DNA of 37,910 nt from Porticoccus sp. W117 (GTDB lineage: Bacteria; Pseudomonadota; Gammaproteobacteria; Pseudomonadales; Porticoccaceae). The DNA is taken from positions 1 to 37,910 of the forward strand of contig NZ_JATAAF010000026.1 of assembly GCF_030341905.1 (NCBI RefSeq), in the 5' to 3' direction. Of this stretch, positions 24,045-35,089 are shown one piece after another (the first letter of the stretch is position 1; each line of letters starts with the position of its first letter). Below the pieces are notes generated by a model. That model searched no databases and had not been told where the DNA came from. It saw nothing but the letters and a program-made list of their open reading frames with translations. Both the position numbers and the translations under genes were made by a program.

Positions 24045-24956
24045 TTACTCTCCCATCACGTATAGTCTGTTCACGTATGAATCGATGCCAATCACATCTT
24101 CTTTCGGCAAACCTACCGGAGAATATTCATAAATACCAATTGGATGAAGAGAATACTGAACTTGAAACAACAAGCGATCCCTAGATTCACAAAGGGTCCC
24201 TTTGTGCATACCAAATGTGTCCTCCAAAAATGAATCGCCCGCCTCTCCGGAAAATTCGACTATATTCTCCTTGCCAAAGTGAGAGACAATCTCTTCATCT
24301 GTATAGCGCCTAATAACCTTGCACTTATTAGAACTATGACTTCCCTTCACAAAGACATGTGGCCCAGACCCAGAATCCACATCAGTCAAATACACGAATA
24401 ATTTAATAAACTTCAAATCATCCACATCTCTATGAAAAAACTCAGCCTCTTGGGCTTCTGAATGACCTGCATAAGACCACCAGACCGCTAGATTTGAAAT
24501 CGTTGGCTTTACACCCAAATACGACTCCACGAGCGACAAGACCTTCGGATCATTCGCCGCATCAAGAATGTGGGGACAAGATACAACAGACTTACTTTGA
24601 TACAGCGCAGTATGACATTTCTCAGGCGGCGATGATGCATCAAAAAGTCCGCCCTCCACATCCCATCGGTCATAAACTTTCTCTCGAGAAAGGTACTCTG
24701 TTATCTCTTTTACTTGCTGATCCGTGAACAACCTTCCAAGGTTGAGAAATCCGTCATGTTTCAACCTTTCAATATCCTTGGTGCAAACCTCTAATTGAGA
24801 CTCAGGACTGGGCAATCTCTTGGCAAAAACCTTCCTTATATTTTCCCTTGCCCTTGGCTCCATAAACATACGCTGCATATAGAACATAAAATTACTGAGT
24901 GGATAAAATCGATGCACCACCCTTTTCAGCAATCTACTCATACCCCCTCCACTCAC
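24045..24956 (-). CDS. PhyH-family Fe(II)/2-oxoglutarate-dependent oxygenase
   Basis: The protein has 303 residues from the ATG at 24956, or 298 from the ATG at 24941, which has GGAGG 4-5 bases upstream and may be the true start. It carries the phytanoyl-CoA dioxygenase fold. HRDVDDLKFIKLFVYLTDVD near residue 173 gives the HxD iron ligands, followed by GPHVFVKGSH. MHKG near residue 250 supplies the distal histidine and SRDRLLFQVQYS the 2-oxoglutarate-binding arginine region. Family members hydroxylate or otherwise oxidise small substrates. Such an enzyme is not part of any established nonulosonate pathway, so here it may hydroxylate the sugar or its N-acyl group. It overlaps pseI by 4 bp and so is coupled to it. 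Confidence 0.8.
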   Translation of the reverse strand: MSGGGMSRLLKRVVHRFYPLSNFMFYMQRMFMEPRARENIRKVFAKRLPSPESQLEVCTKDIERLKHDGFLNLGRLFTDQQVKEITEYLSREKVYDRWDVEGGLFDASSPPEKCHTALYQSKSVVSCPHILDAANDPKVLSLVESYLGVKPTISNLAVWWSYAGHSEAQEAEFFHRDVDDLKFIKLFVYLTDVDSGSGPHVFVKGSHSSNKCKVIRRYTDEEIVSHFGKENIVEFSGEAGDSFLEDTFGMHKGTLCESRDRLLFQVQYSLHPIGIYEYSPVGLPKEDVIGIDSYVNRLYVMGE

Positions 24957-26002
24957 TCAAAACAATCCCACTTAACAGGGTTTCCTCTTTTACAGAGAGC
25001 CTTAACCTTTTTTCCCATAACTTGATCGTAAAACTTGGGGGGCAAACCATAGCCAGGCCTAATACTCCTGACATGCGTACTGGTAATAATCTCCCCTGGC
25101 ATCACATCTTGCACAAAATACAACGAGCGCCTAAATGCCAAGCTCCCCTTTTCACTTTCCTTGTGATCATAGTTAACCCGACCCAGTGACTCCCAAGAAA
25201 TTCGAGCGCCATCACAAAGATTTTTCAATTCTCTAGGCTCCAACGAGAAGCTATCATCAGGCCCTCCACCAGATCGGCTTAGAGTTACATGCTTTTCAAT
25301 CACGCATGCACCCAATGCAACGGAAGCTACCGCAGTTGTATTGTCGATTGTGTGATCAGATAGTCCGGCAATAACACCAAACTCACGCTCCAGGTCTGGA
25401 ATTGTCAGCAAGTTGTAATCGGAAGCCGGGGCGGGATAACCACTCACACAATGAAGTACCACTAGCTCCTTGCAACCCCCGTCTTTTGCTGCTGCAATGG
25501 CCTCTGATATCTCATCCTTAGTCGCCATTCCGGTAGAGATAATCATTGGCTTACCCGTGGCAGCCGTATACTTAATCAACGGGATATCAATCGCTTCAAA
25601 CGAAGCAATTTTATACGCTGGCGCCCCCAGATTTTCCAGCATATCTACTGCTGTATGATCAAAAGGCGAGCTAAACATTGTAATATCCAGCTCTCTTGCT
25701 TTTTCGAATAGCGGTTTATGCCAATCCCAGGGCATGTGCGCTTCTTTATACAGATCATAAAGAGTTCTACCATCCCAGAGACCACCACGAATCAGGAATT
25801 CATCTGAATCACAGTCCATTGTGATTGTTTCATGTGTATAGCTCTGCAGTTTTACTGCATCTGCTCCGGCCTTTTTAGACTCTTCAATAATTCTAAATGC
25901 CCGCTCAATGTCACCATTGTGATTTGCAGATAACTCCGATATCACATAAGGCCTAAACGCCCTACCAATTTTTCGACCATCAATTTCAATATAATCAGAC
26001 AT
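24953..26002 (-). CDS. pseI: Pseudaminic acid synthase (NeuB/PseI family)
   Basis: This enzyme condenses phosphoenolpyruvate with a 2,4-diacetamido-trideoxy hexose to make a nine-carbon nonulosonic acid. The 349-residue protein has the NeuB barrel (about 1-280): VISELSANHNGD, AGADAVKLQSYTHETIT, MFSSPFD, YKIASFE, STGMA, VLHCVSGYPAP, GLSDHTID and VIEKHVTLSR. The C-terminal SAF antifreeze-like domain (about 290-349) has RRSLYFVQDVMPGE and IRPGYGLPP. LQSYT and the overall pattern favour PseI over sialic or legionaminic synthases. It follows the ATP-grasp gene by 9 bp and overlaps the PhyH gene by 4 bp. Neighbouring PseB, PseC and PseG support the pseudaminic assignment. Confidence 0.93.
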   Translation of the reverse strand: MSDYIEIDGRKIGRAFRPYVISELSANHNGDIERAFRIIEESKKAGADAVKLQSYTHETITMDCDSDEFLIRGGLWDGRTLYDLYKEAHMPWDWHKPLFEKARELDITMFSSPFDHTAVDMLENLGAPAYKIASFEAIDIPLIKYTAATGKPMIISTGMATKDEISEAIAAAKDGGCKELVVLHCVSGYPAPASDYNLLTIPDLEREFGVIAGLSDHTIDNTTAVASVALGACVIEKHVTLSRSGGGPDDSFSLEPRELKNLCDGARISWESLGRVNYDHKESEKGSLAFRRSLYFVQDVMPGEIITSTHVRSIRPGYGLPPKFYDQVMGKKVKALCKRGNPVKWDCFE

Positions 26003-34091: not shown

Positions 34092-35089
34092 AGCTCGGCC
34101 AACTTATCAAACTCACGAATCTCATCAACCGTCAGGAAGTGCGTGTTGTTTCCTGAATGATATTCGTAGCCAAGCCCTACTTCTTCACCTCTCTCGCCCA
34201 ATCCATTGAGCATGTAGTCATTATCACCATTATGAAACTTAATTGTTGGCCTCAATACGTAGTGATCCCCAAACTCAAGTGTCAAATGAGAATCATCAGC
34301 TGGGCACATAATTTCATGCAACTTCTCCCCAGGGCGAATACCGATGATTTTTGTAGCCACACCCGGCGCATAAGCTTCGGCAAGATCCATGATGCGGACG
34401 GAAGGAATTTTCGGAACAAAAATTTCACCACCATGCATGCGCTTAAAGTTAGTCAATACAAAATCAACACCTTGTTGCAGACTAATCCAGAAGCGGGTCA
34501 TGTCAGCATGAGTAATTGGCAACTCCTCAACACCTTCCGAAAGAAGCCTCTTGAAGAAAGGAACCACAGATCCGCGCGAGCCCACAACATTTCCGTAACG
34601 TACAACTGCAAAACGGGTACGACCTTTGCCGACCATATTGTTTGCCGCCACAAACAACTTATCTGATGCCAACTTCGTTGCACCATACAGATTAATGGGA
34701 TTGGCAGCTTTATCTGTAGACAAGGCAATCACCTTTTCCACATCGTTCGCAATGGCTGCCTGAATAACATTCTCAGCACCATGCACATTTGTTTTAATGC
34801 ACTCCATCGGATTGTATTCAGCGGCTGGAACCTGCTTTTGAGCAGCAGCATGGATAACAAAGTCAACATCCTGCATCGCCTGCTTCAATCTTTCAGCATC
34901 TCGGACGTCACCGATAAAGTAACGCATGCACGGGGCATTAAACGTCTGCTGCATCTCGAACTGCTTAAGTTCATCACGAGAGTAAATAATCAATCGCTTC
35001 GGGTTATATCTTTCAAGGATAGTTTTGGTATATTTCTTTCCAAAAGATCCAGTACCACCAGTAATTAAAATACTTTTATTACTAAACAT
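34088..35089 (-). CDS. pseB: UDP-GlcNAc 4,6-dehydratase/5-epimerase PseB
   Basis: PseB makes the first step of pseudaminic acid synthesis from UDP-GlcNAc, by removing water at C4-C6 and inverting C5. This is an extended SDR of 333 residues: ITGGTGSFGKKYTKTIL for NAD(P) binding, YSRDELKQFEMQQ, DVRDAERLKQAMQDVDFVIHAAA, and the catalytic STDKAANPINLYGATKLASDK block with T-D-K and Y-x3-K. It is shorter than membrane-anchored WbpM-type dehydratases and has no transmembrane part, as expected for PseB. It is the promoter-proximal gene of the nonulosonate block, 28 bp after the ligase gene. Confidence 0.95.
   Translation of the reverse strand: MFSNKSILITGGTGSFGKKYTKTILERYNPKRLIIYSRDELKQFEMQQTFNAPCMRYFIGDVRDAERLKQAMQDVDFVIHAAAQKQVPAAEYNPMECIKTNVHGAENVIQAAIANDVEKVIALSTDKAANPINLYGATKLASDKLFVAANNMVGKGRTRFAVVRYGNVVGSRGSVVPFFKRLLSEGVEELPITHADMTRFWISLQQGVDFVLTNFKRMHGGEIFVPKIPSVRIMDLAEAYAPGVATKIIGIRPGEKLHEIMCPADDSHLTLEFGDHYVLRPTIKFHNGDNDYMLNGLGERGEEVGLGYEYHSGNNTHFLTVDEIREFDKLAEL

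Follow-up and report, generated by a model that had tools for sequence, protein, structure and literature searches.

Gene content of the pseudaminic acid run

We analyzed a run of genes for a pseudaminic acid (Pse)-type nonulosonic acid in Porticoccus sp. W117, carried on contig 19 (37,910 nucleotides; NZ_JATAAF010000026.1; this whole stretch is hereafter the window) of a 3.28 Mb genome that is 99.85% complete. Twelve minus-strand open reading frames (ORFs) follow one another in tight series from 35089 down to 24045:

34088..35089, minus: PseB, inverting UDP-GlcNAc 4,6-dehydratase (TIGR03589, 553 bits, cut-off 408)
32922..34091, minus: PseC, C4 aminotransferase (TIGR03588, 556 bits, cut-off 424)
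32370..32918, minus: acetyltransferase of the GNAT family, opening the C8 cassette described below, predicted 8-N-acetyltransferase rather than PseH (TIGR03585, 54.9 bits, cut-off 93.1)
31486..32373, minus: aldo/keto reductase (AKR), predicted C8 alcohol dehydrogenase (PF00248)
30731..31489, minus: cytidylyltransferase of SpsF type, predicted to activate the C8-modified sugar (PF02348, 121.5 bits)
29430..30719, minus: AT3, class III pyridoxal phosphate (PLP) aminotransferase, predicted C8 aminotransferase (PF00202, E 1e-52)
28345..29430, minus: PseG, UDP-sugar hydrolase (TIGR03590, 263 bits, cut-off 154)
27665..28348, minus: short-chain dehydrogenase (SDR) of the second module, predicted acyl-precursor reductase (PF00106)
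26961..27668, minus: metallophosphoesterase (MPE) of the second module (TIGR00040, 59.4 bits, cut-off 56.25)
26012..26986, minus: second-module ATP-grasp ligase (ATPG), predicted to acylate N7 in place of PseH (PF15632, PF02655)
24953..26002, minus: PseI, pseudaminic acid synthase (TIGR03586, 499 bits, cut-off 340)
24045..24956, minus: PhyH-like Fe/2-oxoglutarate oxygenase, outside the conserved set (PF05721, 21.3 bits, cut-off 22; HRD at 175-177)

An earlier note on this DNA had listed these families, and its list is confirmed: PseB, PseC, PseG, and PseI exceed their curated cut-offs, and AKR, AT3, SDR, MPE, and ATP-grasp are clear Pfam matches. It was also right that the genes share one direction, but not that they are joined by gaps of 1 to 10 bp, as most neighbors overlap: from PseB through the gene past PhyH the spacings are -4, 3, -4, -4, 11, -1, -4, -4, -26, 9, -4, and 3. 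Starting the ATP-grasp gene six codons downstream, as in the stored 318-residue protein P0001, changes the -26 to -8.

Relative to the Pse5Ac7Ac pathway (PseB-C-H-G-I-F), the window thus shares four enzymes above cut-off, and differs in using an SpsF-type activator, in carrying two added modules, and in belonging to a genome in which neither PseF nor PseH passes its cut-off. A whole-genome search found no protein above the PseH cut-off (TIGR03585, 93.1 bits); the best match in the genome is the window GNAT, at 54.6-54.9 bits and at 119 bits on a local profile. No PseF above the TIGR03584 cut-off of 205.7 bits was found in the genome, the best match (41.7 bits) lying on a different contig, and the window SpsF-type protein scores 26.8 bits on that model, being of CTP_transf_3 type instead. 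The earlier assignment of the GNAT to the standard Pse5Ac7Ac route is probably wrong, since the protein falls under the PseH cut-off and co-occurs with AT3 instead.

Two modules with separate distributions

We scanned a collection of genome contigs with a profile of the ATP-grasp enzyme (40 rows) and, out of 244 relatives, retained the 80 strongest together with as much as 10 kb of flanking sequence in either direction; having been chosen by this profile, the set is enriched for the ATP-grasp module. As a random control, 60 PseI loci were taken from 398 genomes of the same phylum, 70 of which had a PseI match at 1e-60; the ten PseI genomes outside the control are the window's own and nine with weaker or partial matches. 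Among the 80 ATP-grasp loci, 71 have PseI at 400 bits or more, and 76 have a gene of the NeuB/PseI family in reach when weaker, split, or cut-off matches are counted (within reach of L010, L017, L061, and L068 there is none; the L017 stretch stops 1.8 kb beyond the match). MPE was detected in 76 of the 80. The usual run ends with SDR-MPE-ATPG-PseI or with a methyltransferase in place of the SDR: SDRs of the second-module type occur in 48 of the 80 loci, and methyltransferases in 17 of the 32 loci that lack this SDR and 7 of the 48 that have it.

The order PseC-GNAT-AKR-SpsF-AT3-PseG-SDR-MPE-ATPG-PseI of the window is identical in Aquimarina sediminis (L023) and in a Flavobacteriaceae metagenome-assembled genome (L059, where PseI is split across two ORFs). 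PseB precedes these ten genes in both, so that an eleven-gene order is shared with Bacteroidota. Because the same order recurs across phyla, the gene run reflects more than chance. In the control, the ATP-grasp family exceeds 190 bits at 2 of 60 PseI loci (L102 and L114, the former being the same Stutzerimonas locus as L022). MPE matches at 1e-30 occur in 3 of the 398 phylum genomes, always adjoining an ATP-grasp gene that precedes PseI. Together with the NeuB/PseI-family gene at 76 of the 80 loci, this bears out the earlier note's claim that the extra enzymes are linked to Pse genes.

AT3 has a strong, though incomplete, link to nonulosonate loci. At 1e-100 it was found in at least 15 of the 398 phylum genomes, a lower bound because the search scored at most four candidates per genome, and a NeuB-family gene lies in the fetched stretch of eight of these. 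Three more (L175, L178, and L179) have PseB, PseC, and AKR with the synthase not in the stretch, and four (L176, L177, L180, and L182) have AT3 without a synthase in the fetched stretch, with a PseI about 18 kb off in L182. The earlier note held that extra genes occurring without Pse genes would speak against it; for AT3, such occurrence was found in part, in these 4 of 15 genomes. That search passed over three genomes with control loci (G023/L102, G025/L129, and G336/L153), which also hold AT3 and PseI; counting them brings synthase with AT3 to 11 of 18. Complete AKR-SpsF-AT3 sets are present in control loci L101, L102, L129, L136, and L153, and a lone AT3 stands at a contig start in L131.

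We counted co-occurrence in the 54 of the 80 ATP-grasp loci that have PseC, calling both GNAT and PseG at 150 bits. GNAT of the window type is present at 21 of 26 loci with AT3 and at none of the 28 without; for AKR the counts are 25/26 and 4/28, and for the SpsF-type activator 25/26 and 10/28. Activators of the SpsF and PseF types occur together in just 2 of the 54. In L063, L065, L072, and L074 the GNAT sits beyond PseI, outside the cassette. AT3 shows no association with the second-module SDR (16/26 with AT3, 20/28 without, p 0.57). By their neighborhoods, the additional enzymes therefore do not form the single set of six that the earlier note took as likely to act together: they are a C8 cassette, GNAT-AKR-SpsF-AT3, between PseC and PseG; an independent SDR-MPE-ATP-grasp module before PseI; and a sporadic PhyH. 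We dropped PhyH from the conserved set, as PhyH-like ORFs are found at only 5 of the 80 loci, one of them weak; it may decorate the predicted sugar or another residue.

These associations also appear as repeated evolutionary change. We built a tree of the ATP-grasp enzyme from 56 rows, comprising the window and 55 of the 80 loci, for which PseC and an activator call were required and GNAT was called at 130 bits. AT3 requires 17 changes on this tree. Across 12 independent supported pairs, AKR goes with AT3 in 10.1 on average (p 0.002), GNAT in 8.3 (median p 0.008), and SpsF in 8.1 (p 0.008), and none of the three ever goes in the opposite direction. Tree neighbors can differ by the whole cassette: the place filled by GNAT-AKR-SpsF-AT3 in L059 holds only PseF in L045 (branch support 100), and AKR-SDR-SpsF of L047 is replaced by PseF in L062 (support 87). 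Because tree neighbors differ in this way, the stretch from PseC to PseG behaves as an exchangeable cassette.

Predicted chemistry of the C8 cassette

A published pair of enzymes suggests what the AKR may do. In Acinetobacter prophages, the protein EpaA combines an SpsF-type domain and an AKR in a single chain, which together with the SDR EpaB, of the adh_short_C2 type, converts Pse5Ac7Ac to its 8-epimer, as seen by nuclear magnetic resonance (NMR) of the capsule (PMC12053666). The window resembles this system in pairing an SpsF-type protein with an AKR on the Pse pathway, in adjacent genes (30731-32373), and differs in that these are separate genes with AT3 and GNAT as partners, where the prophages have a fusion with an SDR partner; this comparison is by description and not by sequence. 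The four AKR loci without AT3 (L008, L047, L048, and L058) have another SDR beside AKR and SpsF, and in the two of these tested, L008 and L047, its best Pfam match is adh_short_C2. From these four loci, and not from EpaB, we built an EpaB-like SDR profile, on which the scores of the four are uninformative, as they are its own seeds. A more distant SDR scoring 83-98 bits on this profile is present in L053, L065, L066, and L070, which have AT3. Among the 19 window proteins searched (17674-36431) the profile has no match at E 1e-20. A simple reading, by analogy with EpaA and EpaB, would be that the AKR works on C8 with SpsF, an SDR partner giving the epimer and an aminotransferase partner the amine.

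The proteins retain the residues expected of active enzymes. An Asp-Tyr-Lys-His tetrad is the catalytic rule among aldo/keto reductases, and its members D44, Y49, K73, and H112 are kept in at least 95% of 31 AKR rows. AT3 and the SDR likewise keep their catalytic residues. In AT3 the PLP lysine, Lys256, and the aspartate Asp228 are each conserved in 95% or more of the 29 rows compared. We rejected AT3 as the glutamate-1-semialdehyde aminomutase (GSAM) of heme synthesis: it scores below the HemL cut-offs (267.6 against 527.3 on TIGR00713; 404 against 486 on NF004856), and elsewhere in the genome lies a GSAM-like protein, 33% identical to AT3, that has NSPVRAF where AT3 differs. If GSAM is set aside, the solved structures closest to AT3 are the C-6' aminotransferases 7lm0 and 7lld, whose substrates are aminoglycosides and whose target there is an exocyclic sugar carbon; an enzyme of this class suits the predicted reaction.

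Two variants of the cassette were seen. SpsF-AT3 fusion proteins of 679-899 residues occur in L022, L026, L052, L064, and L077, tying activation further to amination. Loci L056, L057, L063, L074, and L083, and L025, L027, and L037, have an additional NeuB-family synthase, placed either between AKR and SpsF or in one protein with SpsF (about 590 residues); Pfam NeuB was confirmed for L057.

Because the GNAT tracks AT3, acetylation of N8 is a likelier role for it than that of PseH. We disfavor its role simply as PseH on account of the same link, and retain it as a rival. In that alternative the GNAT would acetylate N7 to give a plain Pse5Ac7Ac core, and the ATP-grasp module would acylate the new C8 amine. 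The GNAT's standing as the best PseH match in the genome agrees with this, as do PseH-like domains in all four random loci that have AT3 together with PseB, PseC, PseG, and PseI but lack ATP-grasp. However, the ATP-grasp module is common without AT3, where no C8 amine is expected, and all 20 such loci with PseG lack a PseH-like domain; the GNAT itself is missing from all 28 loci without AT3. We regard this alternative as unlikely, though worth keeping in view.

A different alternative takes the window to make 8-epi-Pse, with AKR and the window SDR acting as EpaA and EpaB do and AT3 serving another sugar. All three folds of the EpaA/EpaB system (PMC12053666) are indeed in the window. The window SDR, though, is not EpaB-like at the E 1e-20 level given above; its family occurs at 48 of 80 ATP-grasp loci without following AT3; and AT3 and AKR change together on the ATP-grasp tree. 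We consider 8-epimer formation by these genes quite unlikely.

The second module and the proposed product

PseH-like domains are found in 22 of 34 random Pse loci that have neither ATP-grasp nor AT3, and in 0 of 20 loci with ATP-grasp and no AT3 (p 1e-6). Because of this absence, we suggest that the ATP-grasp enzyme probably acylates N7 in place of PseH. Its structure model (predicted local distance difference test, pLDDT, 92.4) matches the ATP-grasp ligase/carboxylase fold along the whole chain. MPE keeps D8, H10, D36, N63, H64, H124, H156, and H158, and the second-module SDR (model pLDDT 94.4) keeps Y147, K151, and N105, its nearest solved relatives being SDR 5if3, ketoreductase 6yc8, and sepiapterin reductases. 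PseG is kept in 33 of the 54 PseC loci and missing in 21, and MPE is a candidate for UDP removal where PseG is missing.

Several genes near these modules deserve mention. A second GNAT family (about 190 residues; PF13420 in the one tested) lies near the place of PseG in 14 loci without PseG at 150 bits (L026, L041, L046, L047, L049, L054, L056, L057, L060, L062, L064, L076, L077, and L079). One gene from PseI in the PseH-less locus L141, a distant ATP-grasp protein has a PylC-like N-terminus (7522-8469). An LmbE/PIG-L-like deacetylase stands beside a formyltransferase near PseI in L009, L034, L035, L075, L101, L111, and L112, possibly for exchange of N-acetyl for N-formyl; the formyltransferase was tested in L009, and the rest was assigned by sequence clusters or by eye.

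It may instead be that the second module is not for N7 at all, with MPE hydrolyzing a UDP-sugar or a sugar phosphate as an additional hydrolase, and with the ATP-grasp enzyme acting on the C1 carboxylate or elsewhere in the O-unit. Some loci retain MPE and ATP-grasp without PseG, and an ATP-grasp fold is in itself compatible with reactions besides amine ligation. Against this, the MPE/ATP-grasp pair lies directly before PseI in the Pse run, in distant phyla, and not among glycosyltransferases, and the 33 PseC loci that keep PseG have no need of a second UDP hydrolase. We think such a role doubtful, roughly to the degree that we doubt the GNAT as PseH.

The cluster's product is best read as a modified nonulosonic acid, in agreement with the earlier note. 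More specifically, we hold with about even confidence that the cluster makes an activated Pse with a C8 amino group, likely acetylated, and with an acyl group on the C7 amine that is placed by the ATP-grasp enzyme and not by PseH. PseB and PseC, whose families and chemistry are established, would give UDP-4-amino-L-AltNAc, from which PseG, also of known family, would release the 4-amino sugar, presumably working without PseH. The ATP-grasp enzyme would join a small carboxylic acid to the 4-amine, the later N7; this acid may come from SDR and MPE and is probably a hydroxy acid. Condensation with phosphoenolpyruvate would follow by PseI, an enzyme of clear family. By analogy with EpaA/EpaB and from the swapped partner, the C8 hydroxyl would then be oxidized to a methyl ketone by AKR and converted to the amine by AT3; the co-occurrence of GNAT with AT3 suggests that GNAT acetylates N8. 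Finally, the SpsF-type enzyme would attach CMP, and the wzy/wecA context suggests that the finished sugar enters the O-antigen. For a residue with acetyl at N5, acetamido at C8, and a variable acyl at N7, the calculated masses are 343.138 (formyl), 357.154 (acetyl), 387.164 (lactyl), 401.180 (3-hydroxybutyryl), and 403.159 (glyceryl), against 316.127 for plain Pse5Ac7Ac.

That context is the surrounding locus:

16574..36431, no strand assigned: O-antigen locus with a WecA-like protein, GT4, a Wzy-like protein (TIGR04370), hexapeptide acetyltransferases, a PF05159 capsule-synthesis-like protein, and a Wzy_C protein

The PF05159 (capsule synthesis) protein (22163-23512) adjoins the Pse genes and is a candidate transferase for the predicted new sugar.

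The G+C content of the locus is 43.2%, against 51.7% for positions 1-16.5 kb. In a genome of the same genus (G399), window positions 14111-37465 are 97.2% identical over 23.4 kb, against 88.0% for the flank 5708-12511; another genome of the genus (G398) has no MPE match at 1e-30. The whole locus probably moved as a block. G399 has a second copy of 14111-16603 (uvrB and beyond), 86.7% identical, as if the locus had been inserted with its own uvrB, and in the window a phage-type integrase gene (1607-2914) adjoins a tRNA-Arg gene. We rejected a phage origin: SpsF matched a single phage record, an unannotated one, at 32% identity (Marine virus AG-345-L05, MH319754.1, 85612-86277). In viral contigs the L008 SpsF-AKR fusion has no relative, and the MPE profile has 10 weak matches (24-36%), at none of which tblastn showed another of the 19 window proteins. 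Plasmids gave no megablast match to the window.

Parts of this arrangement are in print. In the Aeromonas group I flagellin island, the activator gene is separated from pseC by an AKR and from pseG by a class III aminotransferase, in the order AKR-PseF-AT3 (PMC7874193); the window has the same layout, with AKR and AT3 flanking the activator gene between PseC and PseG. The island differs in serving flagellin and not O-antigen, and the text seen neither names an SDR-MPE-ATP-grasp module nor assigns the chemistry of the AKR and the aminotransferase. The nab cluster of Vibrio B9-25K2 has an SpsF-AKR fusion within a Pse cluster, but a dehydrogenase follows and no aminotransferase other than PseC is named in the accessible part (PMC7371886). 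Thus the AKR and class III aminotransferase around the activator (Aeromonas) and the SpsF-AKR fusion (Vibrio) are already in print; as far as these partial sources go, an assignment of their chemistry was not found. Text searches, with subscription journals mostly outside their reach, found no published description of C8 amination by such genes or of the SDR-MPE-ATP-grasp module. In Shewanella oneidensis, complete modification of the flagellin depends on an SDR-kind reductase, a methyltransferase, and an ATP-grasp enzyme of the sfmABCDE operon, and the authors read the 274-Da sugar as a mono-N-acetyl Pse with a basic group (PMC3765264). We rejected sfm as a member of the system described here because its enzyme families are others: it has ATP-grasp_4 and the thiamine pyrophosphate enzyme IlvB, and no clear orthologs of PseH, PseG, PseI, or PseF (PMC3765264).

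Sugars of the predicted kind exist. The O-antigen of Flexibacter maritimus (now Tenacibaculum maritimum) contains an 8-amino-pentadeoxynonulosonic acid with acetyl and 3-hydroxybutyryl amides at N5 and N7, the placings being given in both ways and the C8 configuration left open (PMC3210612). Because this O-antigen contains such a sugar, 8-amino Pse-type sugars are known in nature; its 8-amino group and hydroxyacyl amide are what we predict here, a likeness of structure only. Cellulophaga fucicola, in turn, is reported with plain Pse. The flagellin of Aeromonas hydrophila AH-1 carries a 403-Da sugar with Pse-like fragments (PMC4691044). A residue can have an odd mass only if its nitrogens are odd in number, and 8-amino-Pse with two acetyls and one glyceryl (403.159; C16H26N3O9+ at m/z 404.166) matches nominally. 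The island paper names AH-1 to illustrate groups I or III; in group I, the A. hydrophila strains (27 IA, 2 IB) have AKR and the class III aminotransferase, and two more are IIIC (PMC7874193). By its probable group, AH-1 is one of the strains with these two genes. The fit of the AH-1 mass to 8-amino-Pse is suggestive only, the mass being nominal and the AH-1 subgroup inferred. It is weakened by the AH-1 authors' own proposal of methyl groups, water, and an unknown 25 Da (PMC4691044). Aeromonas caviae Sch3N, reported with Pse5Ac7Ac, has a locus described by pse genes alone in the text seen; by our own reading of that gene list it is without AKR and AT3.

We tentatively suggest, at somewhat less than even confidence, that the Pse pathway is built from interchangeable C8 and C7 cassettes. 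At C8, a lone PseF would leave the hydroxyl, AKR with SDR and SpsF would give the 8-epimer, and GNAT-AKR-SpsF-AT3 would give the 8-acetamido group; at C7, PseH would provide acetyl, a formyltransferase formyl, and an SDR or methyltransferase with MPE and ATP-grasp a special acyl. On this tentative scheme the window has the last-named cassette for both positions, and would yield an undescribed three-nitrogen nonulosonic acid. If true, the chemistry at C7 and C8 could be deduced from the cassettes that a genome carries, with the four-gene marker predicting 8-amination in many of them. If right, the cluster would also provide a source of enzymes for making 8-amino nonulosonic acids and offer an explanation of the odd mass of the AH-1 flagellin sugar, and bacteria would alter their surface sugars by swapping small cassettes.

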